From Prosthecobacter sp. (GTDB lineage: Bacteria; Verrucomicrobiota; Verrucomicrobiia; Verrucomicrobiales; Verrucomicrobiaceae), in contig JAIPJY010000003.1 of assembly GCA_021733925.1 (NCBI GenBank), positions 124,001 to 188,000 of the forward strand: a stretch of 64,000 nt of DNA, given 5' to 3'. Of this stretch, positions 9,992-32,573 are shown in pieces (position 1 is the stretch's first letter; each line of letters opens with the position of its first letter). The position numbers and the translations under genes are program-made. Under the pieces are notes generated by a model. The model was not told where the DNA came from and searched no databases. It was given only the letters and a program-made list of their open reading frames with translations.

Positions 9992-10018
9992 GTGGTCCGT
10001 GCCTGCACCAAAATCCTG

Positions 10019-10140
10019 AAATTCTGGAATCTTGTGAATCCTGTCTAAATCCGCGTGGAAGAAGGATGAAGGTGGAAGTGGTGGGTTGCAGGAAGCCAGT
10101 TTGGACAGGATTAACAGAATTGCATGATTCACAGAATTAA
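10019..10140. repeat. Imperfect inverted repeat with AATCCTGTC motifs
   Basis: The segment 10019-10050 (containing GTGAATCCTGTCTAAAT) is an imperfect reverse complement of 10100-10140 (containing TTTGGACAGGATTAACAGAA). The arms share the AATTCTG and AATCCTGTC words in opposite orientation. The element lies between the purB terminator and the VOC gene and may carry that gene's promoter or be a dispersed intergenic repeat. Only this pair occurs in the window. Confidence 0.45.
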
Positions 10141-10169
10141 GTCAGAAGACATCCTTTCTACCACGCTCA

Positions 10170-10526
10170 ATGAACGCCACCTTCCACTCCATCACTCCCA
10201 TGATCCCCACCTGCGGCAGCCTGGCGGAGGCGCTGAGCTTTTACGCGGACCACATGGGTTTCGCCATTCTCTGGCAGGGCGATGGCATGGCCGGCATCGA
10301 GCGCGACGGCGTCTCCCTCAACCTCGTCGTGAACGACAACCAGAACTGGGCGGACAACGCGAGCTTCAGCATCGGCGTCTCCGACCTGGATTCCCTCTAT
10401 GATGAGTATCAGCCGATCCCGGCCCGGGTCGGCCCGCTCGAACTCAAGCCCTGGGGCAGGCGCGAGTTTCATCTCATCGCGCCCTCAGGCGTCTGCTTCC
10501 AGTTTTACCAGCGCGCAGCCGCCTGA
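10170..10526 (+). CDS. VOC (glyoxalase/bleomycin-resistance-type) protein
   Basis: A single 118-residue vicinal-oxygen-chelate module. SITPMIPTCGSLAEALSFYA followed by HMGFAILWQGDG is the usual first beta-alpha-beta unit of the fold; VSLNLVVND, FSIGVSDLDSLYDEY and GRREFHLIAPSGVCFQFYQ complete the second half. Such proteins act as dioxygenases, isomerases or antibiotic-binding proteins, and the sequence does not tell which. The closest general resemblance is to bleomycin-resistance-like members. The metal ligand positions are not all evident, so an enzymatic role is uncertain. The next gene starts about 280 bp downstream. Confidence 0.82.
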   Translation: MNATFHSITPMIPTCGSLAEALSFYADHMGFAILWQGDGMAGIERDGVSLNLVVNDNQNWADNASFSIGVSDLDSLYDEYQPIPARVGPLELKPWGRREFHLIAPSGVCFQFYQRAAA

Positions 10527-10802
10527 CCCGGCGCTGCAGCCCGAGCCGCCAGCGGAGAAACTTCCGCAAATTCCCCAAATACCTCGGGGGGGCGCGCAGC
10601 CGCCTGTCCTGCTCAGCAAGCCGGAGGCTGGCGCTACTGCCGGAGTCTCCACCAGTGGCGACACCGGATGTAGCAATCCCCGCCGTTCATGCCTGTCAAT
10701 AGCTGCTTCGGGCGCAGTGCGTGTTGTGAGCGAGTTCCCCCTTGCGCCCCGCTTCGTAGTCGCTGAGTTTTGGGTGTTCGCCCCACAGGGCTCATTCTGA
10801 CC

Positions 10803-11201
10803 ATGAGAACAGCGATTATCAGCCTTTTCGTTTTGCTTGCTCACGCTGCATGCGCCGCTGACGCCATCACGAGTTCCGAGGAGGCGCTGAGCGCATTCAC
10901 GGCCATCATGCGGAAGTCCATCGAACAGCGCACAGGAAAGAAAGCTCCCGCAGACTCGAAACTCGACGAGCGAACCTCTGCATCATCATCGACCTCGCTG
11001 GAAGTTCATGAGCGGGTGAAGGACACTCTGCTGCCAAACCAGTATGCCAGTTCGGTTCAGGCGGGGACGCTGGGCAGTCTTCTGCCTGATCGCAAGGTCT
11101 GGGTCATCAGCCATTCAGTCGATGTCTTCAGCGGATTCCAAGCCGTGCTGGACGCCAAGGACGGGAAGCTGATTTTTCTCTGGTGGATCCCTGAGGGATG
11201 A
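10803..11201 (+). CDS. Small secreted protein of unknown function
   Basis: A 132-residue protein with a signal peptide (MRTAIISLFVLLAHAACAAD). The mature part starts with a charged helical segment (SSEEALSAFTAIMRKSIEQR), then a Ser/Thr-rich linker, and ends in VWVISHSVDVFSGFQAVLDA and GKLIFLWWIPEG, which read like two beta-strands. I do not recognise the family. The open frame extends upstream to 10770, but the signal peptide fixes the start at 10803. The stop is 32 bases before the next gene, so the two small genes may be co-transcribed. Confidence 0.6.
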   Translation: MRTAIISLFVLLAHAACAADAITSSEEALSAFTAIMRKSIEQRTGKKAPADSKLDERTSASSSTSLEVHERVKDTLLPNQYASSVQAGTLGSLLPDRKVWVISHSVDVFSGFQAVLDAKDGKLIFLWWIPEG

Positions 11202-11232
11202 AGGTTTGTTTCTCCCATCGCACAATCGACCG

Positions 11233-11679
11233 ATGAACCAGAAGATAAAAGAAGAGCTTGCCGAACTGTCCTACCTTTGGACTTCGGGTGAATGGGGGCT
11301 TCGCAGCATTCATCATTCGCGTGCGCGGATCATTCTGATCTTTCAGGCGGGCAGGCCATCGCTGCAGGAGTTGATTGCTGTCCGATCTCTGGTTCCTAAG
11401 TTTGCCCAATCACCGGTGTCGCTGCTCAAAACGGAAGTTGGAGATGTCCCCATGTTCACCGTCGGGGAGTTTGGCAATCTTGAAGCGCGCCGTTTGGAGT
11501 CCGAGGCCAAAGCACGTCGGTTGGAGGTTCGGAGAGAGGATGTGTCATTTACAGGCTACCTACCGGTCAATGTTCAGGGAGCTGCATTGGTCATCGAGGA
11601 CGACGAGTTGGCATCTCTCGCCACCGAAGAAATGCGCCGACGGGGCGTGCCGATCATGTCGTATGAAGAGCACGACTGA
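11233..11679 (+). CDS. Hypothetical protein
   Basis: A 148-residue soluble protein with no signal peptide or membrane segment. The N-terminal part (MNQKIKEELAELSYLWTSGE) is helical and is followed by IILIFQAGRPSLQELIAVRSLVP and a charged region (RRLESEAKARRLEVRREDV). The C-terminus is acidic (IEDDELASLATEEMRRRGVPIMSYEEHD). Some of this recalls ribosomal-protein L7/L12 C-terminal-like folds, but the resemblance is too weak to name. It follows the small secreted protein by 31 bases. The start at 11233 is preferred over the upstream codon at 11206 because it begins a coherent helix. Confidence 0.55.
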   Translation: MNQKIKEELAELSYLWTSGEWGLRSIHHSRARIILIFQAGRPSLQELIAVRSLVPKFAQSPVSLLKTEVGDVPMFTVGEFGNLEARRLESEAKARRLEVRREDVSFTGYLPVNVQGAALVIEDDELASLATEEMRRRGVPIMSYEEHD

Positions 11680-11696
11680 GGTGACCAGGCGCAAAT

Positions 11697-11886
11697 TTGG
11701 AGTGCGGCTGCGCAACGAGGAACGAGTGGAGCTGCCGCTTTCGAGCGTCTCGTGGCGTTCGAAAAAATAATTCGCCTGCGCGTGCCAATCGGCTCTCGCT
11801 TTCGGATGCCTGCGGCCTGCGCATGCTCAGTGGGCCCACGGAAAGCGGTAGCTGCGCTCGTGCCTCGCTGCGCGACCGCAGTCCAT
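11697..11886. repeat. Palindromic intergenic element, copy B
   Basis: This 190-bp stretch starts with TTGGAGTGCGG and ends with GCGACCGCAGTCCA, so its ends match those of copy A (3698-3838) with one change. GAAAGCGGTAGCT occurs in the right half of both copies, and CCGCTTTCG in the left half of both. The middle is longer and diverged. It lies between two convergent genes and has no plausible gene of its own. Confidence 0.6.
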
Positions 11887-11916
11887 ATGGGTGCGCAGCC
11901 TCAGGAAAGTACTCGG

Positions 11917-11969
11917 GAGCTTTAGCTCGCTCTGGAAGGCGCGGAGTTTCCCGGAACGAGCTGAAGCTC
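11917..11969. repeat. Hairpin between convergent genes
   Basis: GAGCTTTAGCTCG at 11917-11929 pairs with CGAGCTGAAGCTC at 11957-11969 over 13 bp with one G-T. It lies 13 bases past the stop of the minus-strand topoisomerase gene and could act as a bidirectional transcript-end structure, though no T-run follows on either strand. Confidence 0.5.
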
Positions 11970-11981
11970 TGAACTACTTTG

Positions 11982-14015
11982 TTACCCCTCCGTCTCCCCG
12001 CTCTTCGGCTCACGCACCACACGGTCCACCGAGTGCTTGGTGATGATGTTCCCCTGGGACTCGCGGCCTTTGATGGCGATGGAGTTGAAGGGGAATTTGA
12101 TCGAGAGATTGCGCAGGTAGAGGGCGGGCTTGAGGTGGACGACGACGTTTTGGGCGTTGGAGTCTTCCTCGGTCTCGTGGCGGATGAAGTACAGGACGTT
12201 GGAGCCGGGGGTGCCTTTGGTGAGCACGTATTCCTTGTCGCGGGTGAAGCCGCCGATGCGGAAGCGCTTGGCCATGAGGCTGCCCTGGCGGCCGTCGCGG
12301 TAGATCATGGTATAAACGGCGCTGTCGTCCTTTTTGAAGAGGTTTACATACAGAGGGTTCTTGCCCACGAAGAACTTCGGCGCGGCTTTGGTGACGCTCA
12401 TGTTGCCCTCGCGGGTAAAGAAGAGGACGTCGTCCAGCGGGGAGCATTTGCAGATCGGGTCGCCTTCGCGCTTCAAGCCGGTGCCGGCAAAGCCTTCCTT
12501 GGCGTTGAGGTAGAGGGTCTCGCCCTGCACGATGACTTCGGCGGCAGCCACGCGGTCAAAGCCGCTCACAACCGTCTTACGCTCGCGGCCGGGGCCGTAG
12601 GTCTTTTTGAGCTCTTCAAAGTGCCGGATGGTGTACCGGGTGAGACCCTTGAGGAATTTCTCGGCCTGGTCGATCTCCTCCTCCAGCTCACGGATGTGTT
12701 CGTCGGCCTCGAAGCTGTTGAACTTCGAGATGCGCTTGATCTTGATCTCGGTCAGGCGCGCCACGTCGTCATTGGTGACTTCGCGCTTGAGCACATGAAG
12801 GTGGGGCTTGAGGCCCTTCCAGATGGCCTCCATCACGGCCTCCCAGGTTTCGGCTTCTTCGATGCGGCGGTAGATGCGGTTCTCGATGAAGATCTTCTCC
12901 AGCGAGCTGAAGTGCCACTTCTCATTGAGTTCGCCGAGCAGGATGCCCAGCTCTTCGCCGAGGATTTTCTTGGTGTTCTCCGCGCTGGCCTTGAGCAGGT
13001 CATTCACATTCATGAAGCGCGGCTTGTCGTCCTGAATGACGACGGCGTTCGGTGAGAGTGAAATCTCGCAGTCGGTGAAGGCGTAGAGCGCCTGGATGGT
13101 CTGGTCGGTGTCGGTGCCTGCGGGGAGATGCACGACGACCTCCACCTTGTCCGAGGTGTTGTCCTCGACGCGGGCGATCTTGATTTTGCCCTTCTCATTT
13201 GCCGCCACGATGCTGTCCATCACGCCACCCGTGGTGGTGCCGTAGGGGATCTCGGAAATGATGAGGATGTTCTTCTTGGGGCCTTCGTCGATCTTGGCGC
13301 GCACGCGGATGCGGCCGCCGCGCAGGCCGCCGTTGTAGTCGCTGGCGTCCATGATGCCGCCGGAGATGAAATCGGGCAGCAGGTTCACTTCCTCATCCCG
13401 GAGTGCTGCGATGCTGGCATCGCAGAGTTCGATGAAGTTGTGCGGCAGGATGCGGCAGGAAAGGCCCACGGCGATGCCTTCGACTCCTTGGGCGAGCAGC
13501 AGGGGGAACTTCACCGGGAGTGTCACGGGCTCCTTGTTGCGGCCGTCGTAGGAGGCGGCCCATTCGGTGACCTTCGGGCTGAACACGACATCCAGCGCAA
13601 ATTTGGACAGACGCGCTTCGATGTATCGGGGAGCAGCGGCGTTGTCGCCGGTGAGGGTGTTGCCCCAGTTCCCCTGGGTGTCGATGAGCAGGTCCTTCTG
13701 GCCGAGCTGCACCATGGCATCGCCAATGGAGGCATCGCCATGCGGGTGATACTTCATCGTGTTGCCGACGACGTTGGCGACCTTGTTGTACCGGCCGTCT
13801 TCGAGCTCATCCATGCTGTGCAGGATGCGGCGATGCACGGGCTTCAGGCCGTCATTGATGTGGGGAACAGCGCGCTCAAGGATGACGTAGCTGGCGTAAT
13901 CGAGGAACCAATCTCCATAGAGGGTATCCACCGGCTTGTGCTCCACAGGGGCGGCGGATGGCAGGATGGGGGAGAAGGCTTCTTCAGCGGATTTTTTGGA
14001 GGACTTTTTGGCCAC
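11982..14015 (-). CDS. DNA topoisomerase IV / gyrase subunit A
   Basis: A 677-residue type IIA topoisomerase A subunit. The DNA cleavage core is complete: YASYVILERAVPHINDGLKP, KVANVVGNTMKYHPHGDASI, and the catalytic tyrosine Tyr131 in AAAPRYIEARLS. A coiled-coil region (EADEHIRELEEEIDQAEKFL) and C-terminal propeller-like blades follow (LMAKRFRIGGFTRDKEYVLT). The C-terminal domain is shorter than in typical GyrA and no clear GyrA box is seen, so a topoisomerase IV-like decatenating enzyme is the better guess. The B subunit is not in the window. The frame is open to 14186, but conserved sequence starts near residue 35 of the chosen product. GTG at 14015 (VAKKSSKKSAEE) is a plausible start with a Lys-rich tail; the upstream part looks non-coding. 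Confidence 0.87.
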   Translation of the reverse strand: MAKKSSKKSAEEAFSPILPSAAPVEHKPVDTLYGDWFLDYASYVILERAVPHINDGLKPVHRRILHSMDELEDGRYNKVANVVGNTMKYHPHGDASIGDAMVQLGQKDLLIDTQGNWGNTLTGDNAAAPRYIEARLSKFALDVVFSPKVTEWAASYDGRNKEPVTLPVKFPLLLAQGVEGIAVGLSCRILPHNFIELCDASIAALRDEEVNLLPDFISGGIMDASDYNGGLRGGRIRVRAKIDEGPKKNILIISEIPYGTTTGGVMDSIVAANEKGKIKIARVEDNTSDKVEVVVHLPAGTDTDQTIQALYAFTDCEISLSPNAVVIQDDKPRFMNVNDLLKASAENTKKILGEELGILLGELNEKWHFSSLEKIFIENRIYRRIEEAETWEAVMEAIWKGLKPHLHVLKREVTNDDVARLTEIKIKRISKFNSFEADEHIRELEEEIDQAEKFLKGLTRYTIRHFEELKKTYGPGRERKTVVSGFDRVAAAEVIVQGETLYLNAKEGFAGTGLKREGDPICKCSPLDDVLFFTREGNMSVTKAAPKFFVGKNPLYVNLFKKDDSAVYTMIYRDGRQGSLMAKRFRIGGFTRDKEYVLTKGTPGSNVLYFIRHETEEDSNAQNVVVHLKPALYLRNLSIKFPFNSIAIKGRESQGNIITKHSVDRVVREPKSGETEG

Positions 14016-14206
14016 GGCGAAAAGGGGGAAGGAACAGGGGTGGCGAGAATAGACACTGACGGGGGGAGTGCAAGGGCTCGCAGCGCCGAAGGCCGAACTA
14101 TCAGCCACTCCCAATGGTTCACCGTCCGAAAGCTCATTTACAATCTCCTGAATTGTCGGGCGGTAGGGTTGGGCGCTTGTTTCCAACTTTGAAAAATTAC
14201 TCGTTC

Positions 14207-17200
14207 ATGATACGCATATTCGCTAGTTCTCGACGAAGTCTGCGGGCTCCACCTCCCGATTGCAGGTGGGGGCTCCTAATGCTTTTTCTCCTCGCTGGTT
14301 ATGTGCAGGCGGACGTCGCCAGTCATGCCGAAGCAGATGCCTTGATGGCGGAGGCAGCACGGCTCGCCCCTGCAGCGGAGGCGGTGGTGATGAGTGTCGG
14401 AGCTGTTTCCCCGGCAGAGTATGTCACCAAGGGCAGTTGGAGTGCCGTCATCCCGTGGACGCCGCACATTCCCACCTCGGCCGCCATGCTGCCGGACGGC
14501 AGGCTGCTGACCTTTGCCTCCAACCAGCGCACCACGTTTCCAGACGGCCCGCAGTTCACTTACGCAGCGGTGTGGGACCCGGCCACGGGCCTGTTTACGG
14601 AGATCAACAACGGCCGGCATGACATGTTCTGCGGCGGGCTTTCGTTTTTGCAGGATGGCAGGCTGCTGGTGAGCGGCGGCAATGGCATCAATGGCAGGAC
14701 GGCGCTGGCCAGCTTGTTTGACTGGCGTACGAATGAATGGGTGCCGGCGCAGACGATGGCGGATGGCCGGTGGTATAACACGAGCATCTCCCTGCCAAAT
14801 GGTGAGGTGCTGACCGCCGGGGGCAATGGCGGCTCCAATGGCAACGGCACAATCGAGCAATGGAATGCCAGCTCCGGCTGGCGGCGAATGAGCGGCATCA
14901 ACTGGCAGGCCGTGGCCAATCCGTCCACCGCGAATGCGATTGAAACGAACTGGCATCCCTTCTTCCTCCTCGCTCCGGATGGCCGGGTGTCGCACTTTGG
15001 TCCGCATCAGTCCCTGAATTGGATCACCGCCACGGGGACCGGAGTGATGACAGCGGCAGGCGCCAGCATTCCGGGGACGCATTATCCCAAGCAGGGAGCC
15101 TGGGCGATGTATGCGCCGGGCAAGGTGATCGTGACGGGTGGCTTGACTGCGATTGATGGCGGGGTGGTGGTGAACAAGGCCTTCACGGTGGACCTCAATG
15201 GCACAGCGCCTGTGGTCGCACCCGCCGCGCCGATGGCGAATGCGCGCTCCTTTGCGAACTCGGTCATGCTGCCGAATGGCGAAGTCATGATCGTGGGCGG
15301 CAACACTTCCGGGCAGTTCTTCAGCGATGTGGGGACGGTTTATTCTCCTGAAATCTGGAACCCCACGACGGGGCAGTGGCGTGCGGTGGCGGATCTCACC
15401 GTGCCGCGCAATTACCACTCTCTCGCGATGCTGCTGCCCGATGGCCGCGTGTGGTCAGGTGGCGGCGGCTTGTCGGGCGACCCGCTGACGGATCATCAGG
15501 ATGCGCAGATTTTCACACCACCACAGTTGTTTAATACGGATGGCACTCCGGCAGTTCGGCCCGTGATCACGGCGGCACCGGATCGCATCAGTCCGGCCTC
15601 GATCTTCACAGTGAACGCCAGCAGCGGCGTGCAGTACTTCAGCGCCATCAGCATGTCCGGGCTGACGCATTCGGTGAGCACAGGCCTGCGGCATGTGCGC
15701 TTCACGCACACGAACCCTTCGGAGGGTCTGTATGCGGTCACTGCGCCATCGAGCATCAATGTGCTCACGCCTGGGTACTGGATGATGTTTGCCGTGGATG
15801 CGAACGGCGTGTGGTCAGTCTCGCACATCATTCAGGTCACCAATTCCACCCTGCCCGTGGTGACGAATCCGGGTCAGCAAAGCCTGGAGCAAAACAGCGT
15901 GCTCTCGCTGCCCATCAGTGCCAGCGCCACAGGCGGCACGCTGAACTATTCGGCCAGTGGTTTGCCAACGGGGCTGGGCATCGATGCCGGCACCGGCTTG
16001 ATTTCTGGCACGGTCACTGCGACTCCCGGAACGTACCGCAGCACGGTTCTGGTGAGCGCGGCAGGGCAGGTGGCCTCCATTACATTCAACTGGATCGTGG
16101 TGCTGCCCAATCTAGGCACTGGCCAGATCATGCGTGAGTATTGGACGGAAATGAACGGCACCACTGTGGCGAGTCTGACCGGCAGCACCCTCTTTCCCGC
16201 AAATCCGAACGGACGTGACCTTCTCGCTTCGTTTAATGCTCCCTCCAACTGGGATGACAACATCGGCCAGCGCCTGCGTGGCTTTCTTTACGTGCCTGTC
16301 ACCGGGCAGTATCGGTTTTACATCACCAGCGATGATGCATCGAGCCTGAAGCTCAGCACCGATGCGAATCCGGCCAATGCGGTGGAAATCGCGAGCCAGC
16401 CTGCCTGGACTCCGCCGGATACCTGGACGTGGTATCCACAGCAGACCTCGGCGCTGATCACGCTGCAGGCCGGCAAGCGCTATTACACCGAGGCATTGAT
16501 GAAGGAAGGCGCGAGTGATGATCATCTCACTGTCGGCTGGAAGAAGCCGGGAGACACGGTGATTGAAGTGATTGGAGGCACCTACCTTTCACCCTATCTG
16601 CCGGTCGATAATCCGGTGGTCGCCTGGAGTTTTGATGAAGCGAGCTGGAACGGCACAGCGGGCGAAGTGAAATCCACCGCTGCAAGCCTGTTCGCCATCA
16701 ATGGCAGCGCGAGCGGTGGGGCGAATACGACCACCACGAATCCAGCGCTCAGCGGCAATCCCGGAACCGGGAGCAGCGCGCAGTTCAATGGCACGAGCCA
16801 GAGCGTCGTCATGCCTTACAGTGCATCGCTTAATCCCAAGGACTTCACCGTTGCCGCATGGGTGCGCAGTGACGCTGCGCTTGGCGCGGCACGCTGCATC
16901 CTTGCCTCGCGTGATGAATCAACTGCCACCAAGAAAGGCTACGGCCTGTGGGTGACTGCCGATGGCTTCTGGCAAGTGCGAACGGGTGCGGACACAACAG
17001 GACTGAAGGGCAGCGCGGTCACCGTGGGGCAGTGGACGCATGTGGCGGCCACGTTCCGCACGACGAGTGTCAGCGGCACGACACTGACCGGTGTACGCAG
17101 GCTGTACATCAACGGCATCCTCGTGAATGAGGACGTCGGCACCTATATTCCAAATACAGCCAAACCCTTGGTCATCGGTGCCGCCGACAGCCCCGGCACG

Positions 17201-20200
17201 GCTTTCTTTGTGGGTGCGGTGGATGAATTCGCGCTGCAGCAGGCACCCTTGTCCCAGCCGGACATTCTCGCACTGCGCGATCTGCGTCACGTCATCAGCA
17301 CCGCAGTGAATCAATCGCCGCAGATCACGAATCCGGGCGCTCAAGCTTCTCTCGTTGGGGCGGTGGTGTCGCTGCCTGTCAGCGCGAGCGATCCTGAAAA
17401 TGATCTCATCACTTTCAGCGCCACCGGTCTGCCTGCGGGGCTGTCGATCTCAGCGGGTTCGGGAGTCATCTCAGGTTCTGTCACGACGGCGGGTGCGTTC
17501 AATGTCTCCGTCAGTGCCACTGATGGCATCAGCACACCCGCAACCGCCGCCTTCACCTGGATCGTCACCGCCGGGCTGACGCTGCAACCACTTGCCGCAG
17601 CGCCGAAAGCCACGGGCGGTGCGCTGACGTTCACCGCGCAGTCAGCGAACGGCATCAACCCTCGCTACAAGTGGAACTTTGGCGACGGCACGCCTGAAAC
17701 CGACTGGCTGACGACCACGAGCATCACGCATACTTATGCCGGACCGGGACGCTATCTGGTGACGCTTACGGCCACCGATGACACCGGCATCACGATCACC
17801 AGCACCTTCTATCAGGCCGTGTATGCCGCGCTGACCACGCTCAAGCCTGCTGCCTCCAGCAGCATCGTGTATGAGCATCCTGCCACCGGCAATGACCGCG
17901 TCTGGTGCGTGAATCCGGACAACGACAGCGTCACTGCTTTTGATGTGGTCACCCGCGCACGCTATGCTGAGATCACCGTGGGCACCGCACCGCGCAGCCT
18001 GGCCCTGGCACCGGACGGCAGGCTGTGGGTGACGAATGTGGAAGCTGCAACCATCAGCATCATCAACCCCACGACGCGCACGGTCGCCTCCACCGTCACT
18101 CTCGCGCATGGATCACGCCCCTTTGGCATCGTCTTTGATCCTGCGGGCACGGCGGCATGGGTGGCGCTGGAAAGCACCGGGCGCGTGCTGAAACTGAACC
18201 CCAGCACCGGAGCGCAGCTGGCTTCGGTGGATGCGGGCGGCCCTGTGCGGCATCTGTCGATCTCCGCCGACAGCGCACGCGTCTATGCCTCACGCTTCAT
18301 CACGCCGCGTGTGGCCGGTGAAAATACCGCCACGCCGATCCTCACGGGAACAGGCGGCCAGGTGGTGGTCATTGGCACAACGGCACTTGCGGTGGAACGC
18401 ACCATTCTGCTGAATCCCAGCACCGCTGCGGATACTTCCACCTCCGCTCGCGGCCTGCCGAATTACCTGGGTGCCGCTGTCATTTCACCCGATGGCCTCT
18501 CGGCTTGGGTGCCATCCAAGCAGGACAACATCCAGCGTGGTGTCTTGCGCGATGGTCTGCCGATGAATCATGAAAACAGCGTGCGTGCCATCGTCTCGCG
18601 CATTGATCTCACCACGCAGGCGGAGAGCCTGCCGTCTCGCGTGGACATTGACAATGCAGGCATGCCCAGCGCCGCTGCGTATGACCCGTACGGCATCTAT
18701 GTTTTCACCGCTCTCGAAGCGAGCCGTGAGGTGGCCATTCTGGATGCGTGGTCGCATCAGGAGATCATGCGCTTTCCAGCGGGTCGTGCACCGCAGGGTG
18801 TCGTCACATCGCCGGACGGCAGCACGCTGTATGTGCAGAATTTCATGGACCGCACGATCACGGTGCATGACGTGAGCGGCATCCTGCAAGGGGCTGGCAC
18901 CGCACCTGTCACCACGGCCACGCTCAGTGCCGTCACCACGGAAAAACTCACTGCCCAGGTGCTGCAAGGCAAACAGCTCTTCTACGATGCGCAGGACCCA
19001 CGTCTGGCGCTGCAGCAGTACGTCAGTTGTGCCGTCTGCCACAACGATGCCGGACATGACGGCCGCGTGTGGGACATGACGGGCTTCGGCGAAGGACTGC
19101 GCAACACGATCACACTCAAAGGCCACGCCAATCACGGCATGCTGCACTGGTCGGGCAACTTTGATGAAGTGCAGGATTTTGAAGGTCAGATTCGCACGTT
19201 CTCCGGTGGCACCGGTCTTATGACGGACACGCAATTCAACACCGGTACAAGCAACCAGCCGCTGGGAGATCCCAAAGCGGGGGTGAGCGCGGATCTCGAC
19301 GCGCTGGCCGCGTATGTGAAGTCTCTCACCGTCAGCGGCACCAGCCCGAGCCGCACTGCAGGCGGAGCTTTGAGCACTGCGGCCTCAGCAGGTCAGCAGG
19401 TTTTTCGCTCACAAAACTGCGCCTCCTGCCACGGCGGTGTGAACTTCACCAACAGCGCACTCAATGTCTTTGCCGACATCGGCACCATCAAACCTGCCAG
19501 CGGCAAGCGCCTTGGAGCTGCGCTCACCGGCCTGGATGTGCCGACACTGCGCGGCAGTTGGGCCACGGGACCCTATTTGCACGATGGCTCTGCGGCCACT
19601 CTGTCTGACGCCATCACCGCGCATCAGGGCGTGACCTTGTCAGCCACCGATCTGTCAAACCTCGCCGCGTTTGTGGCCAGCATTGACGACGCTCCTGCCA
19701 CGGCACCGCTGCCCTTCACCCTCACGCTCGCCACCGCTGCCACCACCGTAACTGCCTCGTTCAATGTCACCGTGACCTTCAGTTCTGTCGCAACCGGTTT
19801 CACGCTCAGTGATATGGTCGTCACCAATGGCGTCGCTTCCACCTTCAGCGGCAGTGGAACCAGTTACACTTTCAAAGTTCAACCAACCGCCACGGGGGTG
19901 GTCACCGTCAGCGTCCCGGCAGGTGCCGCCACGGATGGCACGAGCCTGGGCAATTCAGTCTCCAATCTGCTTAGTGTGAACTATGCCCCCACGGACATCA
20001 CGCCGCCGACGGTGGTTCTCTCCACTCCGTCCTCCAGCGTGAGCGCGCCCTTTGTCGTCACGGCCACGTTCAGTGAAAATGTCACGGGCTTGATTGCTTC
20101 CAAAATTGCAGTCACCAACGGCACCGTCACCGCCCTGTCTTCTGCAGGTGTGGTCTACTCCGCCACGATCACGCCCACGGCTGCGGGAGCCGTGACCGTC

Positions 20201-23200
20201 AGTCTTCCCGCTGGTATGGTGCAGGATGCTGCGGGCAATTTGAACACGGTTTCAAACAGCCTCTCCGCCACTTACACTCCAGTCGTCGTGGTGCCGGTCG
20301 TGAAAATCCAAGCGGAGGACTTTGATGAGGGCGGGGAAGGGGTGGCCTATCACGATGCGGAAGCCATCAATCTCGGCGAGTACGTCTCCGGCCTGCACTA
20401 TCGCGATACCGGAGTCGATATCGAGCCCTCCCGAGACACGGACGGCACTCCGTCCATTGGGTGGATTGCGCCCGGAGAATGGCTGCGCTACACCACGGTG
20501 CTCTCGGCTGGAACCTACTCCATCAATGTGCGTGCGAGCACGCCGTTTGCCGGTCCCGTTCCGGTTCGCGTGCTGATCAATGGCACACTCGCCACAACGA
20601 TCAATCTCACGAACTCTGGCAGCTTTTACTCCTGGAAAACGTTCACTGCCACCGGCGTCAATGTGGCGAATACGGGTCCGGCGGTCGTTCGCTTGGAGTT
20701 CCCGGATGGCAATCTCAACTTCAACTGGATGGAGTTCGTCAACACCACCAGCATACCCGACACCACGCCGCCTGCGGTGGTTCTTGCCACGGTTTCGACC
20801 AGTGTGTCTGCGCCATTCACGGTGAGCGCCGCCTTCAGTGAAGTCGTCACCGGAGTCGCATTGAATGATTTCATGGTCACCAATGGCGTTGCTTCAGCTC
20901 TGAGCGGCAGCGGCTCATCCTACAGCGTTACCATTACTCCCGCAGCCAATGGCGCTGTGACGGTGGCCATGCCTGTGGGCGCGGCTTTTGATGCCTCCAG
21001 CAACGTGAGTCTGGCCTCGAACACCCTGAGTGTGACCTACACCGCGCCGGTGTTGCCTGCGCCCACAGTGCTGCTCAGCACGGCGTCTTCAAGTGTGACA
21101 GGTGCCTTCACGGTGAACGCAGTCTTCAGCCAATCCGTCACAGGAGTGGAATTGAATGATTTCATCCTCACCAATGGCGTGGCCTCGGCGCTCACAGGCA
21201 GCGGAGCCACCTACAGCATCCTGGTGACTCCTGCAGCGGTTGGTGCTGTCACGGTCAGCGTACCCGCGAGTGCCGCCACCAATGCAACTGGAGGTGCGAA
21301 CACGGTGTCGAATCTGCTCACCGCCACCTATGCCCTCCCGGACACCACGCCGCCGACGGTGACGCTGTCCACGCCGGCAACCAGCGTCACAGGGGCCTTC
21401 GTTGTGACTGCCACGTTCAGTGAAAGTGTCACCGGCTTGCTCGCTTCCAACTTCGCGGTCACCAACGGCACCGTCATCGCCTTGTCTTCCACGGGAGTGG
21501 TCTATTCTGCCACGGTCACGCCCACGGCTGCGGGTGATGTCACCGTCAGCCTGCCCGCAGGCATGGCGCAGGATGCCGCAGACAATCAGAGTCTCGCGTC
21601 CAATCTCATCACCGTAAACTACGCGCCTGTTGTCCTCACCAACGGCCTCACGGGTGACTTCTACATCGGTAAAAACTTTGAGCAATTCAGCTTCACTCGT
21701 TTGGAGCCCACGCTCAACTACGCCTGGGGCACGGGCAGTCCCGATCCGCGACTTCCTGTCGACGGCTTCAGCGTGCGCTGGCACGGCTATCTCATCCCGC
21801 GCTATACTCAGACTTATACCATCATCCCCGTGACCGATGACGGCGTGCGTCTCTGGGTCAATGGCCAGTTGATCGTCAATGACTGGAATAATCACGGCGA
21901 CACCTGGAACAACGGCGTCATCGCTCTCCAGGCCGGCGTAGCCGTCTCCATCGTGATGGAGTACTATGAAAGCACCGGTGGCGCCACTGCCCGACTTTTC
22001 TGGGAAAGCCCCGGACAGACCCGCGAGGTGATCCCGCAAAGCCAGTTGCTCGTCAATGCGCCGGGTGCGGCACCGGCTGCTTCGCCGAGTTCCATCACAC
22101 TGACTTCGGTCATTCCCAGCACTCTATCTCTCACCAACAATCTCGCCACGACGAACAGCGATAAAGACGGTGCATCGGATCTCCTCGAAACCGCGCTCGG
22201 CATCTCGCTCACGAGTGGCATCACCCATCCCGGTGAAGGCTTGCAGCTTGTCACGCGCAATAACAATAGCGTCGATGCCACCCTCCTGCGTCCGTCGGGT
22301 CAAGGCACCTTCACGTTCACGCTCGAAAGCAGCAGCGACCTGATCAACTGGGCACCGCTCGACGTGACACCCACAGTCGTCAGTCAGGGCAATGGCCGGG
22401 AACGGGTGACGTGGGCAGACCTCCAGTCTCTCCCTGGGCAAAGCCTTGCGAGTGGCATCATCCGTCTGCGCGTCACACAAAGCGGCGGCGCCAGCACCGC
22501 CAGCACCCCGGTGGGCTGGCAGCAGACCACCCTGAATTCCGGCACGCAGAGCTACGGTCTCAATCTCTCCCATGAGGCTCTTTTTACCGGCAGCCTCAGT
22601 GCCGCCAATGCCTCCAGCGTCACGCTCGGCGAGCAGGCGGCCGTGGCTTCTGCCATGGATCCCGCACAGTATTACTACCTCGAAATCATCAGCGGCCCGC
22701 AGGTCGGGCATCGCCTTGATTTGCAGAGCATCACGGCCAGCGAGTGTTTCATTGCCGCTGACTCGTCCAACACCACACTCTCTGCGAGTGCCATTGCTGG
22801 CTTGTCCGGTGCCCGCGTCTGCTTGCGACCGCATCGCACCATGGGCGAAGTCTTTGATCCCGCACTCTTCAAAGGTTCCTCTGTCGCCACCAGCGCCGAT
22901 CAGATCCTGTTCTACGCACCCGCAGGTTACAGCACCTACTGGCTCTACGCCTCCGGTGGTGCATGGAAATGGGTTTTGAGCGGGGACACTCTTGCCAGCA
23001 TGAATGATACGATCATGCCACCTGGCACAGGCGTGATGCTTCAAATTGCAAGCTCCAGCCCCGCCCCTCTGCTCACTACTGGCAGCGTGCGTACCACACC
23101 TTTCGCCCGTCCGCTTCAGACGGGCTACAATCTCTTCGCCAATCCCTGGCCACTCGACACCACACCCGCCCAGGCGGGTCTGAACTCTACGGCGATCGTT

Positions 23201-23449
23201 GCCAGCACCGCCTTTTCCAGCGCCGATCAATTTCAGCTATGGAAAGGCGATGCCACCCCCGCAGCCTCTGGCTACCTGGGCTACTGGCTTTTCCAAATGC
23301 CCGGCCAGCCCGTTCCCATGTGGATTTCCATGGGCGATGCCTCCCTGCATTCTCAGAACAACGCCACTCTGCTGCGTGCCGGTCGTGCCACCTTCATCAA
23401 AGCTCAGCCCAGAGCAAATCGTGCCGTCTGGATCATTCCGCCGCCTTGA
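14207..23449 (+). CDS. Giant exported multidomain protein: copper-radical oxidase plus di-heme cytochrome c
   Basis: A 3080-residue protein with an N-terminal signal (to about 36). Residues 60-545 match galactose/glyoxal oxidase: HDMFCGGLSF (Cys142) and RWYNTS (Tyr190) fit the thioether-linked pair, RNYHSLAMLLPDGR gives Tyr403 and His404, and GLTHSVSTG gives His488, so every copper ligand is present. Next come Ig-like (552-632), PA14 (637-795), LamG-like (803-1020), Ig-like and PKD (1040-1208) and a beta-propeller (1215-1562). A cytochrome c peroxidase/MauG-like part (1582-1828) has CAVCH (1608-1612) and CASCH (1738-1742). Then follow Ig-like repeats, a CBM6-like domain (2032-2182), more Ig-like repeats, a second PA14 (2478-2616) and a C-terminal domain resembling TIGR02597 (2768-3080). 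It probably works at the cell surface on carbohydrates or aldehydes. No Trp equivalent to the galactose oxidase stacking residue is evident. Start by signal peptide. Confidence 0.88.
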   Translation: MIRIFASSRRSLRAPPPDCRWGLLMLFLLAGYVQADVASHAEADALMAEAARLAPAAEAVVMSVGAVSPAEYVTKGSWSAVIPWTPHIPTSAAMLPDGRLLTFASNQRTTFPDGPQFTYAAVWDPATGLFTEINNGRHDMFCGGLSFLQDGRLLVSGGNGINGRTALASLFDWRTNEWVPAQTMADGRWYNTSISLPNGEVLTAGGNGGSNGNGTIEQWNASSGWRRMSGINWQAVANPSTANAIETNWHPFFLLAPDGRVSHFGPHQSLNWITATGTGVMTAAGASIPGTHYPKQGAWAMYAPGKVIVTGGLTAIDGGVVVNKAFTVDLNGTAPVVAPAAPMANARSFANSVMLPNGEVMIVGGNTSGQFFSDVGTVYSPEIWNPTTGQWRAVADLTVPRNYHSLAMLLPDGRVWSGGGGLSGDPLTDHQDAQIFTPPQLFNTDGTPAVRPVITAAPDRISPASIFTVNASSGVQYFSAISMSGLTHSVSTGLRHVRFTHTNPSEGLYAVTAPSSINVLTPGYWMMFAVDANGVWSVSHIIQVTNSTLPVVTNPGQQSLEQNSVLSLPISASATGGTLNYSASGLPTGLGIDAGTGLISGTVTATPGTYRSTVLVSAAGQVASITFNWIVVLPNLGTGQIMREYWTEMNGTTVASLTGSTLFPANPNGRDLLASFNAPSNWDDNIGQRLRGFLYVPVTGQYRFYITSDDASSLKLSTDANPANAVEIASQPAWTPPDTWTWYPQQTSALITLQAGKRYYTEALMKEGASDDHLTVGWKKPGDTVIEVIGGTYLSPYLPVDNPVVAWSFDEASWNGTAGEVKSTAASLFAINGSASGGANTTTTNPALSGNPGTGSSAQFNGTSQSVVMPYSASLNPKDFTVAAWVRSDAALGAARCILASRDESTATKKGYGLWVTADGFWQVRTGADTTGLKGSAVTVGQWTHVAATFRTTSVSGTTLTGVRRLYINGILVNEDVGTYIPNTAKPLVIGAADSPGTAFFVGAVDEFALQQAPLSQPDILALRDLRHVISTAVNQSPQITNPGAQASLVGAVVSLPVSASDPENDLITFSATGLPAGLSISAGSGVISGSVTTAGAFNVSVSATDGISTPATAAFTWIVTAGLTLQPLAAAPKATGGALTFTAQSANGINPRYKWNFGDGTPETDWLTTTSITHTYAGPGRYLVTLTATDDTGITITSTFYQAVYAALTTLKPAASSSIVYEHPATGNDRVWCVNPDNDSVTAFDVVTRARYAEITVGTAPRSLALAPDGRLWVTNVEAATISIINPTTRTVASTVTLAHGSRPFGIVFDPAGTAAWVALESTGRVLKLNPSTGAQLASVDAGGPVRHLSISADSARVYASRFITPRVAGENTATPILTGTGGQVVVIGTTALAVERTILLNPSTAADTSTSARGLPNYLGAAVISPDGLSAWVPSKQDNIQRGVLRDGLPMNHENSVRAIVSRIDLTTQAESLPSRVDIDNAGMPSAAAYDPYGIYVFTALEASREVAILDAWSHQEIMRFPAGRAPQGVVTSPDGSTLYVQNFMDRTITVHDVSGILQGAGTAPVTTATLSAVTTEKLTAQVLQGKQLFYDAQDPRLALQQYVSCAVCHNDAGHDGRVWDMTGFGEGLRNTITLKGHANHGMLHWSGNFDEVQDFEGQIRTFSGGTGLMTDTQFNTGTSNQPLGDPKAGVSADLDALAAYVKSLTVSGTSPSRTAGGALSTAASAGQQVFRSQNCASCHGGVNFTNSALNVFADIGTIKPASGKRLGAALTGLDVPTLRGSWATGPYLHDGSAATLSDAITAHQGVTLSATDLSNLAAFVASIDDAPATAPLPFTLTLATAATTVTASFNVTVTFSSVATGFTLSDMVVTNGVASTFSGSGTSYTFKVQPTATGVVTVSVPAGAATDGTSLGNSVSNLLSVNYAPTDITPPTVVLSTPSSSVSAPFVVTATFSENVTGLIASKIAVTNGTVTALSSAGVVYSATITPTAAGAVTVSLPAGMVQDAAGNLNTVSNSLSATYTPVVVVPVVKIQAEDFDEGGEGVAYHDAEAINLGEYVSGLHYRDTGVDIEPSRDTDGTPSIGWIAPGEWLRYTTVLSAGTYSINVRASTPFAGPVPVRVLINGTLATTINLTNSGSFYSWKTFTATGVNVANTGPAVVRLEFPDGNLNFNWMEFVNTTSIPDTTPPAVVLATVSTSVSAPFTVSAAFSEVVTGVALNDFMVTNGVASALSGSGSSYSVTITPAANGAVTVAMPVGAAFDASSNVSLASNTLSVTYTAPVLPAPTVLLSTASSSVTGAFTVNAVFSQSVTGVELNDFILTNGVASALTGSGATYSILVTPAAVGAVTVSVPASAATNATGGANTVSNLLTATYALPDTTPPTVTLSTPATSVTGAFVVTATFSESVTGLLASNFAVTNGTVIALSSTGVVYSATVTPTAAGDVTVSLPAGMAQDAADNQSLASNLITVNYAPVVLTNGLTGDFYIGKNFEQFSFTRLEPTLNYAWGTGSPDPRLPVDGFSVRWHGYLIPRYTQTYTIIPVTDDGVRLWVNGQLIVNDWNNHGDTWNNGVIALQAGVAVSIVMEYYESTGGATARLFWESPGQTREVIPQSQLLVNAPGAAPAASPSSITLTSVIPSTLSLTNNLATTNSDKDGASDLLETALGISLTSGITHPGEGLQLVTRNNNSVDATLLRPSGQGTFTFTLESSSDLINWAPLDVTPTVVSQGNGRERVTWADLQSLPGQSLASGIIRLRVTQSGGASTASTPVGWQQTTLNSGTQSYGLNLSHEALFTGSLSAANASSVTLGEQAAVASAMDPAQYYYLEIISGPQVGHRLDLQSITASECFIAADSSNTTLSASAIAGLSGARVCLRPHRTMGEVFDPALFKGSSVATSADQILFYAPAGYSTYWLYASGGAWKWVLSGDTLASMNDTIMPPGTGVMLQIASSSPAPLLTTGSVRTTPFARPLQTGYNLFANPWPLDTTPAQAGLNSTAIVASTAFSSADQFQLWKGDATPAASGYLGYWLFQMPGQPVPMWISMGDASLHSQNNATLLRAGRATFIKAQPRANRAVWIIPPP

Positions 23450-23543
23450 GTCTGGGCAATCTCTGACGGGTGTTGTCTGAGCCGGGAGGGGTACCACTTT
23501 TATCTTGCCACGGCATGATCGATTTTTTAGGCTGTGTGAGGTC

Positions 23544-24395
23544 ATGCAGCTCACGCTCCATCGTACGCTTTTGATTCACACCCTGCTTCCGGTTGGGATC
23601 GGTGGATACTGGGTGGCGCATCGTCGAGTTCCAGACAAGACGGCTCCAGTCAAACACGTGCGCATGCCCACCCAGGCGGAGCAGATGGAGATCATTCGCC
23701 TGAGTGGTGAGACCGGGCTGACGGGTTCGCATGACTCAGAGGCATCCCAGAAGCGTTGCCTGGCGCTGATCGACCTGCAGTTGCGCTACATGCCGCCGGA
23801 GCATCCCGAAGTCGTCAACAACCGAAAGGTCCTGGCACGATCCTTCAACTCCTCACATCGGTATGCGGAAGCGGCGGAGCAGTATCGCGCGTTGCTGAAG
23901 GCATTCCAACGCGTCATGGGCCCGGAAGCCCCGGAGACATTGGAATGTCAGACGAATTTGAAGAGCATGCTAGATCATCTGAGCGAATCTGAAAAACGAC
24001 TGCAGGAATGTCGTGATTCTTATCAGGCGCAGTCGCTTGCTCTTGGAAAAGAACACCCTCAGGTGCTGAGGCTTCAGACGGAACTTGCCGAGCGTCTGTT
24101 GGAAATGTCGAAGTATGAGGAGGCCGAGAGGGAGCTGCGCTTTCTGGTGAATGTTCAGCGAAAAATGCAGAAAGACATCGATGACACTGCAAATCAGAAC
24201 CTGCTTAATCTGGCCGTATGCCTCAAAGAGAAGGGCCAGCGGAAGGAGGCTTTGGAGATTGTTGAAGAGGTGGAATGGATCGTAGCGGATTTTCCCAGAG
24301 CAGATGCCCTGGTATTCGGTGCGGGTGGCCGACCTGCGTGCCGAAATCAACGCAGGACGGATCAAGCGCCACGTGAAGCAGAAGGGGCATGCTGA
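23544..24395 (+). CDS. TPR-repeat protein, C-terminus possibly frameshifted
   Basis: A 283-residue protein with one N-terminal membrane/signal segment (LTLHRTLLIHTLLPVGIGGY). About five tetratricopeptide-like helical pairs follow, of the kinesin-light-chain type: EHPEVVNNRKVLARSFNSSH, YAEAAEQYRALLKAF, KEHPQVLRLQTELAERLLEM, YEEAERELRFLVNV and LLNLAVCLKEKGQRKEALEI. The last 35 residues (after IVADFPRAD) are Gly/Arg-rich and unlike the rest. In the +1 frame the DNA from about 24296 to the stop at 24474 reads FPEQMPWYSVRVADLRAEIN and on, which looks like genuine protein. A one-base shift near 24295 is therefore likely, in nature or in the assembly. The extended form would overlap the convergent nitrilase gene by 47 bp. 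Start at 23544, preceded by GTGAGGTC. Confidence 0.65.
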   Translation: MQLTLHRTLLIHTLLPVGIGGYWVAHRRVPDKTAPVKHVRMPTQAEQMEIIRLSGETGLTGSHDSEASQKRCLALIDLQLRYMPPEHPEVVNNRKVLARSFNSSHRYAEAAEQYRALLKAFQRVMGPEAPETLECQTNLKSMLDHLSESEKRLQECRDSYQAQSLALGKEHPQVLRLQTELAERLLEMSKYEEAERELRFLVNVQRKMQKDIDDTANQNLLNLAVCLKEKGQRKEALEIVEEVEWIVADFPRADALVFGAGGRPACRNQRRTDQAPREAEGAC

Positions 24396-24427
24396 AGCGG
24401 AGCGCGGACTTGGCATGCCTCACTCCA

Positions 24428-25756
24428 CTATTCCTGCAAAGCAGGCGGCCGGTGGCTCTGAATCTGCGCCTTGAAGTCTCCGAGGCTGTTCCAGTGGGTG
24501 GGTGCATTCAGATCGACTTCCGCGATGGCGAGGGTGCCAAACACATCCGCCTTCGCCAGCACATCGCCATAGTGATCGAAGATGCCTGAGATCATCCACT
24601 GGTGCTTGGTGGCGTCGGTGTAGGTGCTGCTGACGATGTAAACATGGTTCTCGCAGGCACGGGCGGCGGCGAGCATGGGATTGCAGCCCCAGACCGGCCA
24701 GGCGATCACTTCCGCACCATGAATGGTCAGAGCGCGGGCCACTTCAGGGAAGAAGCCATCGTAGCAGACCATCATGCCCACTTTGCCAAAGCGCGTGTCA
24801 AACACCGGGTAGTCATGGCCGGGTGTGATGCCTGCCTCGATTTCACTTCGTGGCAGAGTCACTTTGCGATACTTGCCGATGAGCGCTCCATCCGGACCAA
24901 GGAGTGCGGAGGTGTTGTAGAGTGTCTTGCCCTCGCGCTCAACAAGGCCCGCGACGATGTAGAGATTGTGCTCCTTCGCCAATTTGCCAAAATACTCCGT
25001 GCTAGGGCCCGGCACACTCTCCGCACACTCGGCCATCGTCTTGCCCGTGCCATAGTAGGTGAGCGTCTCGCCGAGCACGACGAGGTCCGCCTTTTGCTTG
25101 GCAGCTTCAGCGATGAGCGGCGCATACTGCGGTGGTTTCTCAGCGGGGTTCTTGCCGTCCTTTGGCTGGAGGTGAATCGTGGCCAGCCTGACTTTGCGCG
25201 GGGCAGGGGCGGGCACGGTGGCGAGTGAGACTTCGCTCCACTCCACCCGCGCATTGGCAGCCCACTGGAGATAAAGCTCGATCTTCGCCTGTGTGGCCTT
25301 CACCGGCGCACGCAGGGTGCTCTCGCAATGAATCCATTGGTTGGCTTCGCCGTCTGGGACCAGCGGATACTCGGGTTCCGCACGTGGCACGGTGCCTTTG
25401 GCATAGCCTTGCTTGGCGGGCTCCTCCCAGCTGACGGGCTTGCCGTTTTCATCCTGCCAAAGAATGCGTGCATACACGCTGCGCCGCGCGGTGGGCATGG
25501 AGCTGGCTTTTTTCCAGGCACTGAACTGGTAATGCTGGCCGCCCGTCACCGGCAGCGTGCGCGTCCAGCAGCCGATCCAGTGCTCGCCGACGCCGGTTTC
25601 CAAAACCAGCGCGCCTTTGCCATCATGTCCGCCGTCCTGGCTCTGCACTGCGGAGGGCTTTGTCTCATCGCGCGGAGACCACAGGGACCAGTCTTCAGAG
25701 ACTGCCGCATGGGAGGCGGTGGCGAGAAGGAAGAGGAGGGCGGTGAGGGATTGCAT
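24428..25756 (-). CDS. Exported nitrilase-superfamily amidase with N-terminal carbohydrate-binding-like domain
   Basis: A 442-residue protein with a signal peptide (MQSLTALLFLLATASHAAVS). Residues 20-185 form a beta-rich jelly-roll-like module (QHYQFSAWKKASSMPTARRS, WIHCESTLRAP). Residues 190-440 are a carbon-nitrogen hydrolase with the full triad: Glu in DLVVLGETLTYYG, Lys in GKYRKVTLPRSE and Cys in MVCYDGFFPEVARAL. The family cleaves nonpeptide C-N bonds in amides and nitriles; the substrate is open. Export of a nitrilase fused to a binding module suggests action on an envelope or polymer substrate. AGGAG stands 4-8 bases before the ATG, one of the few Shine-Dalgarno-like sequences in the window. 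Confidence 0.88.
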   Translation of the reverse strand: MQSLTALLFLLATASHAAVSEDWSLWSPRDETKPSAVQSQDGGHDGKGALVLETGVGEHWIGCWTRTLPVTGGQHYQFSAWKKASSMPTARRSVYARILWQDENGKPVSWEEPAKQGYAKGTVPRAEPEYPLVPDGEANQWIHCESTLRAPVKATQAKIELYLQWAANARVEWSEVSLATVPAPAPRKVRLATIHLQPKDGKNPAEKPPQYAPLIAEAAKQKADLVVLGETLTYYGTGKTMAECAESVPGPSTEYFGKLAKEHNLYIVAGLVEREGKTLYNTSALLGPDGALIGKYRKVTLPRSEIEAGITPGHDYPVFDTRFGKVGMMVCYDGFFPEVARALTIHGAEVIAWPVWGCNPMLAAARACENHVYIVSSTYTDATKHQWMISGIFDHYGDVLAKADVFGTLAIAEVDLNAPTHWNSLGDFKAQIQSHRPPALQE

Positions 25757-25875
25757 GCACTCCTATACGCACCCAAAGACTGCAATTTACGCAGAGACGT
25801 TGTTTGCTGGGTTACAACCCTCTGGGTTGGGTGGTAATTGAATACGATGACTAGGTGATGCGCGCGAAAAGAAAT

Positions 25876-26013
25876 CTAGGTTCATTGGGTTCAGGGTTCA
25901 CGGGTTCATACCTTATATATAGGGTATGAACCCGTGAACCCAAAACCCACCCTCCAACGGGTGAACCTGAACCCACCGGTGAACCTGAATGAGCCCACTG
26001 AACCCGCCGCAGC
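25876..26013. repeat. TGAACCC-rich palindromic repeat, copy 1
   Basis: The segment is built from GGGTTCA/TGAACCC words. A 48-bp palindrome lies at 25894-25941 (centre TATATATA, one mismatch at 25913), and GTGAACCTGAACCCACCGG follows. The reverse complement of this element matches 59684-59868 over nearly its whole length, apart from a segment of about 40 bases present only there. It fills most of the 287-bp gap between the metalloprotease stop and the nitrilase start. No coding potential is seen. Confidence 0.85.
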
Positions 26014-26043
26014 ACCGCCGCCGCTTGAAGACAGCGGCAAGCC

Positions 26044-28800: not shown

Positions 28801-29005
28801 GGCAAAGCAAGGGTGGGTGGTGGATCGTAAATATGACAATACCCAACACAACGGCCCAGCAGCGAGATCATTGTATAAAAATGTGACGGCCGGGCGGAAC
28901 ACCTCCTGTCGCGCTCTCCGCCATACCCGATTCACATTTAATGGTAAGAATGGTAAGAAAGCTGAAAGCCCTTCGTTTTCGCGGCTGGAAGACACCTCCA
29001 CCCCT

Positions 29006-32537: not shown

Positions 32538-32573
32538 CAAAATTTTTCGCCATGATCAAGATGGCGGAAAATG

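Follow-up and report, generated by a model that had tools for sequence, protein, structure and literature searches.

A copper-radical oxidase fused to a hydrazine-synthase-type propeller and di-heme module in Verrucomicrobiota, and its association with a fused MbnP-MbnH gene

Introduction

Copper-radical oxidases lapse into an inactive non-radical form, from which one-electron oxidants, for example from peroxidases, restore them (PMC10928124), and in Colletotrichum a tandem peroxidase activates the alcohol oxidase with which it is paired (PMC9770985). Here we analyse a gene of a Prosthecobacter sp. (Verrucomicrobiota) in which such an oxidase is followed, on the same polypeptide chain, by a beta-propeller and a di-heme cytochrome c domain. 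The gene lies in a stretch of 64,000 nucleotides, below called the window (assembly GCA_021733925.1, contig JAIPJY010000003.1, positions 124,001 to 188,000 of the forward strand), whose own numbering is used for all coordinates given without a locus name. Both the copper site and the heme sites are present and conserved among the relatives of the protein, and the family is associated with a fused MbnP-MbnH gene.

The closest described relatives of the oxidase part are enzymes of family AA5: the bacterial galactose oxidase 9g43/9g8h, Fusarium galactose oxidase 1gof, Streptomyces GlxA 4unm and Fusarium glyoxal oxidase 9n3u. The remainder of the core resembles hydrazine synthase beta and gamma (5c2v B and C), in that a beta-type propeller is followed by a gamma-type di-heme domain, and it shares two CxxCH motifs and an inter-heme Trp with bacterial cytochrome c peroxidase (bCCP) and MauG. 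A last related system concerns copper binding, where MbnH makes kynurenine in MbnP. CorA, a copper protein of similar nature, binds Cu(I) via kynurenine and two His, is co-transcribed with a di-heme peroxidase-like protein, and has been suggested to acquire its kynurenine much as MbnP does (PMC3912023), although MbnP is described as not markedly similar to CorA (PMC3621798). AA5 fusions as such are already known, since another bacterial one, with a CE3 domain, is named in the reference list of PMC11267884. The initial annotation of the window, made from the sequence alone, knew of no described protein combining oxidase and di-heme domain, and in the open literature, which leaves most subscription papers outside its coverage, we likewise found no description of an AA5 fusion to a hydrazine-synthase-type beta-gamma module or of a tie to MbnP-MbnH. 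Each part is of a known kind, and it is the fusion and the tie that appear to be undescribed.

Results

One chain carries both parts and recurs across genera

The gene is one uninterrupted open reading frame whose module order, according to Pfam and NCBIfam, is AA5 oxidase, Ig-like, PA14, LamG, Ig-like, PKD, YVTN propeller, di-heme c, five Big_12 repeats, CBM35 and PA14, with the di-heme part about 1000 residues C-terminal of the oxidase. An alternative in-frame ATG at 14114 is possible; the start at 14207 yields an N-terminus that, by eye, resembles a signal peptide.

14207..23449, + strand, whole gene, one uninterrupted open reading frame of 3080 codons, ATG at 14207
14207..14311, + strand, signal-peptide-like N-terminus, residues 1-35 (judged by eye from the sequence)

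The distribution of the architecture was read from an even phylum sample of 387 genomes and from a sample of the order. The oxidase is found in 9 (E up to 1e-20) and the propeller-di-heme stretch in 15 (E up to 1e-30) of the 387 genomes, and the order sample holds the oxidase in 51 of 386 genomes, at 64 places, spread over 15 of the 50 genera sampled. All 64 order places together with L027, L028, L029 and L037 make up the 68 loci considered below, the window's own included. They comprise 57 fusions on one open reading frame, eight loci cut by a contig end, one gene split by a stop, one unfused oxidase and one oxidase fragment (L164); among the 60 loci intact at the 3' side, the fusions are again 57, next to the stop-split gene and two loci without the module, one of which is the fragment. 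The contig-end pieces C73/C263 of G412 and C7/C323 of G427 are in each case probably one gene. In the stop-split locus (L130:4840-11700, G726) the stop falls between the oxidase half and the following propeller-di-heme half, and reflects either a sequencing error or a split gene.

Since the one-frame architecture recurs at 57 loci of many assemblies, a chimeric assembly can be ruled out, as can a frame error, which the initial annotation had named among the ways in which its proposal might fail, and homologues do carry both domains. Its central claim, that one exported chain unites an oxidase of the copper-radical type with a di-heme c domain, is supported by domain searches as well as by conservation across genera. 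All records but one belong to Verrucomicrobiota, as judged beyond this phylum from one scan of genome contigs with a single protein query; the exception is a Rhodothermales record (L029), whose fusion carries a type 9 secretion tail at its end, consistent with surface export.

The copper-radical site is complete and the galactose determinants are not conserved

The oxidase domain has the fold of the AA5 family, a seven-bladed kelch propeller plus an E-set domain, with Pfam matches to GO-like_E_set (residues 451-544, 5.5e-15) and Glyoxal_oxid_N (137-281, 2.4e-12). In a PDB search the oxidase part matched galactose oxidases at 7e-97, and against the NCBIfam GlxA model the window protein scores 153.8 bits, compared with a curated cut-off of 800. 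Residue equivalences were taken from the family alignment, with positions counted by hand on the alignment to 2eid, and conservation was counted over those of 68 rows that cover each position.

14384..15841, + strand, AA5 copper-radical oxidase domain, residues 60-545 (Pfam, NCBIfam, PDB, family alignment)
14630..14632, + strand, Cys142, galactose oxidase C228, the thioether partner (conserved in 64/64)
14774..14776, + strand, Tyr190, galactose oxidase Y272, the radical Tyr (65/66, the exception being fragment L164)
15413..15418, + strand, Tyr403-His404, galactose oxidase Y495 and H496 (64/64 each)
15668..15670, + strand, His488, galactose oxidase H581 (64/64)

All five copper and radical residues that had been assigned by motif match thus proved correct, the alignment placing each of them at the copper site. 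The surroundings of the site are different. Trp290, Arg330 and Gln406, which we take to have their roles in galactose oxidase proper, correspond in the window protein to Gly208 (Gly in 61 of 66 rows), Glu246 (Arg in none of 63 covering rows) and Asp317 (Gln in none of 50 covering rows, with 18 rows gapped); compared with the known AA5 enzymes, the family therefore has Gly208 or a similar residue for Trp290, lacks equivalents of Arg330 and Gln406, and carries a di-heme module in addition. Because these three positions are not conserved, galactose is ruled out as the likely substrate. Of the sugar or aldehyde oxidation suggested initially, that of galactose is thus unlikely; the substrate may be an aldehyde or another alcohol, presumably an extracellular one.

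The propeller and di-heme module is closest to hydrazine synthase

The second conserved part of the chain runs from a PKD domain through a propeller to the hemes.

17600..17806, + strand, PKD domain, residues 1132-1200, start of the conserved PKD-propeller-di-heme core (Pfam)
17822..18886, + strand, seven-bladed YVTN-type beta-propeller, residues ~1206-1560 (best structural match hydrazine synthase beta)
18950..19690, + strand, di-heme cytochrome c domain, residues 1582-1828 (best profile match hydrazine synthase gamma)
19028..19042, + strand, heme 1 CxxCH, residues 1608-1612 (kept in 57/57 fused proteins, window included)
19148..19150, + strand, Trp1648, aligned with the inter-heme Trp of bCCP and MauG (57/57; role according to PMC12758564)
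19418..19432, + strand, heme 2 CxxCH, residues 1738-1742 (kept in 57/57 fused proteins, window included)
19622..19624, + strand, His1806, candidate distal ligand of heme 2, at the position that we take to be MauG Tyr294 (56/56)

Both heme motifs lie where the initial annotation had put them. Its description of their setting as cytochrome c peroxidase- or MauG-like holds for the two CxxCH motifs and the inter-heme Trp, and a Pfam match to CCP_MauG (1585-1657, 3.5e-7) exceeds the cut-off of that family; it does not hold for the distal ligand position of heme 2, where the fused domain has His and neither the Met of bCCP nor the Tyr of MauG, and TIGR03791 reaches 44 bits, compared with a cut-off of 443.85. 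As an exact label, MauG-like is ruled out by this ligand position, the nearest relatives of propeller and di-heme domain being hydrazine synthase beta and gamma. In a family-profile search the closest solved relative of the di-heme domain is hydrazine synthase gamma and no peroxidase, while a search of the PDB with the single sequence places 3o5c (5.8e-15) above hydrazine synthase gamma. The structural comparison was dominated by propeller matches and barely covered the di-heme domain, so that we make no claim about the fold around the hemes. The kinship to hydrazine synthase has its limits too: at the active heme, gamma has His144 where the window family has Trp1648 (equivalence according to PMC12758564), and the NCBIfam model of the beta-gamma fusion gives the window protein 54.7 bits, compared with a curated cut-off of 1250.

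A fused MbnP-MbnH gene often accompanies the oxidase

Upstream of the oxidase, and on the same strand, 40 of the 68 loci carry a gene that fuses MbnP, the methanobactin-associated copper binder, to MbnH, its di-heme enzyme (in L154, counted among the 40, only the MbnH half is visible, at a contig end). This partner gene ends 135-570 nt before the oxidase domain in 39 loci and 2.5 kb away in L158; five loci have less than 2 kb visible upstream. The partner in L034 exceeds the Pfam cut-offs for both halves (MbnP, 84.2 bits against 27; CCP_MauG, 177.7 against 25.6), and its best structure in the PDB is MbnH 6e1c (2.6e-47), but it stays below the NCBIfam equivalog cut-offs TIGR04039 (248.6 against 362.85) and TIGR04052 (39.8 against 140), as does the partner in L028 (267.2 and 43.4). 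Two motifs, HWxW and a late HY, hardly vary in the partner alignment (at least 39 of 41 rows), and the Tyr of the latter occupies, by eye, the position of His1806 in the fused domain. The neighbour thus shares with MbnP-MbnH and CorA-CorB both parts and the near-invariant WxW motif, and differs from them in being a single fused open reading frame, in standing beside a copper oxidase gene and, for the members tested, in falling under the NCBIfam cut-offs.

Fusions of the window's type form one clade (13 rows of the tree, support 100) and have no MbnP-MbnH neighbour. Of eight genomes with only this type, seven carry an unlinked partner, 62-64% identical to the reference copy, so that loss of the partner is ruled out for these seven, where it is merely unlinked. 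Among 20 oxidase-free genomes listed out of 335, the oxidase-linked class of partner is found in one (G533, 61%), in a copy beginning 179 bases from a contig end on the side where a fusion would lie; in the other 19 there is either a more distant class (up to 55%) or, at E up to 1e-60, no match at all. Comparing the first 8 genomes with 13 by Fisher's exact test gives p 7e-5, which is a description and no independent test, because the genomes share ancestry. In the partner tree the seven unlinked copies are nested in the linked clade, while the distant class forms a separate one (12 rows, support 100).

The window genome itself has two fused MbnP-MbnH genes, one of the oxidase-tied class (L079:7209-9023) and one of a second, unlinked class (L080:7165-8961), which follows a same-strand open reading frame of about 600 codons (L080:8978-10777). 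Over the partner gene and its downstream flank, locus L079 matches L139, L142, L143 and L144, two of which (L139 and L144) also match it on the upstream side; between partner and downstream flank these four loci hold a second oxidase-heme gene, where L079 has about 0.4 kb. A partner lacking a neighbouring oxidase hence occurs where another, unlinked oxidase exists, as one would predict for a partner acting on the oxidase in trans, although an independent role is a possible alternative.

Variable modules and genomic setting

Across members, the constant core consists of oxidase, PKD domain, propeller and di-heme domain, while the segments between oxidase and PKD and those C-terminal of the hemes differ member by member. 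The PA14, LamG and CBM modules noted initially are indeed present in the window protein, but vary among relatives and are no part of the conserved core.

15854..16099, + strand, He_PIG Ig-like domain, variable module (Pfam)
16109..16711, + strand, first PA14-like domain, variable module (Pfam stretch; limits estimated, approximate)
16787..17266, + strand, LamG-type domain, Laminin_G_3, residues 861-1020 (Pfam; seen in the window-type clade and L130)
19997..20272, + strand, best-scoring of five Big_12 Ig-like repeats (Pfam)
20402..20731, + strand, CBM35/CBM6-like module, CBM_35_2, residues 2066-2175 (Pfam; several relatives are without it)
21641..22042, + strand, second PA14 domain (Pfam)
22064..23446, + strand, C-terminal region common to close relatives (search with this region as query)

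The source genome (G000) measures 7.3 Mb, is 93% complete and contributes the window from contig 75; among named records, its nearest relatives are metagenome-assembled genomes that carry the labels Verrucomicrobia, Verrucomicrobiaceae or Prosthecobacter, and in one case Akkermansia muciniphila. Directly beside the fusion gene lie a topoisomerase-like gene on the opposite strand (by eye) and genes for a TPR protein and a carbon-nitrogen hydrolase, and an Rfam scan of 10000-27000 returned no family at threshold. Further along, 26047-29067 (- strand) encodes a large protein with DUF4953 met-zincin and DUF5117 domains, and three long open reading frames on the + strand (32571-35426, 39334-41529 and 41545-44283; 952, 732 and 913 aa) have no Pfam match at 1e-5, the latter two coming just 3' of a BatA/VWA gene.

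Discussion

The fusion, together with the copper-binding partner gene beside it in many relatives, suggests that the protein has its own means of activating the copper enzyme and of dealing with the peroxide. We favour a reading, to which we would assign a probability of roughly 0.4, in which the di-heme module serves the oxidase as a redox partner built into the same chain and the copper is supplied or buffered by MbnP-MbnH; a surface oxidase with an attached heme partner and a dedicated copper supply is what we infer from the precedents in PMC10928124, PMC9770985 and PMC3912023. The oxidase would use O2 to oxidise an alcohol or aldehyde outside the cell, galactose being an improbable substrate, and would yield H2O2. 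This H2O2, or another oxidant, would react at heme 1, heme 2 and Trp1648 would relay the oxidising equivalents, and these would re-oxidise copper sites that have lost their radical and become inactive; the enzyme would thereby be kept switched on while its own peroxide is removed. One chain would then do what the fungal tandem peroxidase and alcohol oxidase do with two proteins; that pair likewise consists of a copper-radical oxidase and a heme enzyme activating it, but is described as two separate secreted proteins with a peroxidase of another superfamily (PMC9770985). That the di-heme domain may use or detoxify the peroxide, as proposed initially, is plausible. A more specific form of the proposal, a self-activating single surface protein in which the H2O2 of the Cu-Tyr site feeds hydrazine-synthase-type hemes that keep the radical on, and which receives its copper from a dedicated MbnP-MbnH with a di-heme-made copper site, seems to us rather doubtful.

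Several observations weigh against the built-in partner. At heme 1, the profile alignment offers no obvious counterpart of Glu114, which we take to be the acid residue of bCCP, and a short search fitting that residue to heme 1 gave alignments that were weak and partial. In 23 of the 68 loci no MbnP-MbnH gene lies upstream, although each of the 23 has at least 2 kb visible there, and in G468, which has a window-type oxidase, a search at E up to 1e-60 finds no MbnP-MbnH. Between oxidase and di-heme domain lie about 540 to 1330 residues, a long and variable stretch, and direct electron transfer within one chain need therefore not be possible. One genome of the same family as the window's (G423) has an unfused AA5 oxidase of 539 aa (L163:9093-10709), a natural control for the fused form. 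Finally, the PKD-propeller-di-heme module occurs without the oxidase at 13 places of the phylum sample (in one, L064, with a stop between propeller and hemes), which bears on the use of peroxide as well; the original job of the module was therefore not oxidase activation.

These oxidase-free proteins lead to one alternative, namely that the chain holds two independent activities on a surface scaffold, the heme module keeping the redox job of its oxidase-free relatives and the AA5 domain having replaced another N-terminal propeller. Pfam, applied to three of the 13, finds LVIVD near the N-terminus (weakly in two) and Big_5 and a PKD-type domain in all three, and the oxidase may indeed have taken the place of such a propeller, with the heme module presumably having a job of its own. 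The free variation of the modules between oxidase and heme parts points the same way. Since 57 of the 60 loci intact at the 3' side are fusions on one open reading frame, and the two parts jointly conserve their catalytic residues, we nevertheless regard this alternative as somewhat unlikely. The large YVTN-propeller and di-heme proteins without oxidase (L061-L073) number up to three copies per genome (G307, G189).

It is also conceivable, though unlikely, that the hemes are an electron outlet, through which the copper site or its product passes electrons to cytochromes of the cell, making the enzyme a dehydrogenase instead of an H2O2-making oxidase. Cellobiose dehydrogenase, a flavin oxidoreductase with a cytochrome domain, is a precedent for such an arrangement. 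The invariant His at heme 2 would fit it, as hydrazine synthase gamma II is described as a bis-His electron-transfer heme (PMC12758564, PMC12607021). Known AA5 enzymes use O2, however, and the sequence offers no barrier to it; none of the eight open reading frames of the window scanned with Pfam is a cytochrome, no genome-wide search for a partner having been made.

Plain detoxification, in which the di-heme module would draw electrons from an external donor and do no more than remove peroxide, is less probable again: the CCP_MauG match above cut-off and the single-sequence match to 3o5c argue for di-heme peroxidase kinship, but the family profile is nearest to hydrazine synthase gamma, and the Met ligand of bCCP is absent. 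That the di-heme module or the adjacent MbnH forms the Cys-Tyr crosslink or another modified residue in the oxidase, in the way that MauG and MbnH act on their partners, agrees with the upstream MbnP-MbnH fusions and with the near-invariant MbnH Tyr at, by eye, the MauG ligand position, but is highly improbable, given that the fused domain lacks a MauG-type Tyr and that the Cys-Tyr crosslink of galactose oxidase self-forms with copper and O2.

The family shows a module of the hydrazine synthase beta-gamma type recruited beside an unrelated oxidase. If the self-activating form of the proposal is correct, it would represent an integrated copper-and-heme radical machine, and MbnP-MbnH would gain a client enzyme outside methanotrophs. 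Copper-radical oxidases are biocatalysts whose weak point is inactivation, from which they are re-activated by added peroxidase, and a natural single-chain solution would be directly useful. Through its tie to MbnP-MbnH, the oxidase is also, to our knowledge, a first candidate for a client that such a copper protein may have in organisms other than methane oxidisers, and the two genes form a pair suited to testing copper transfer.
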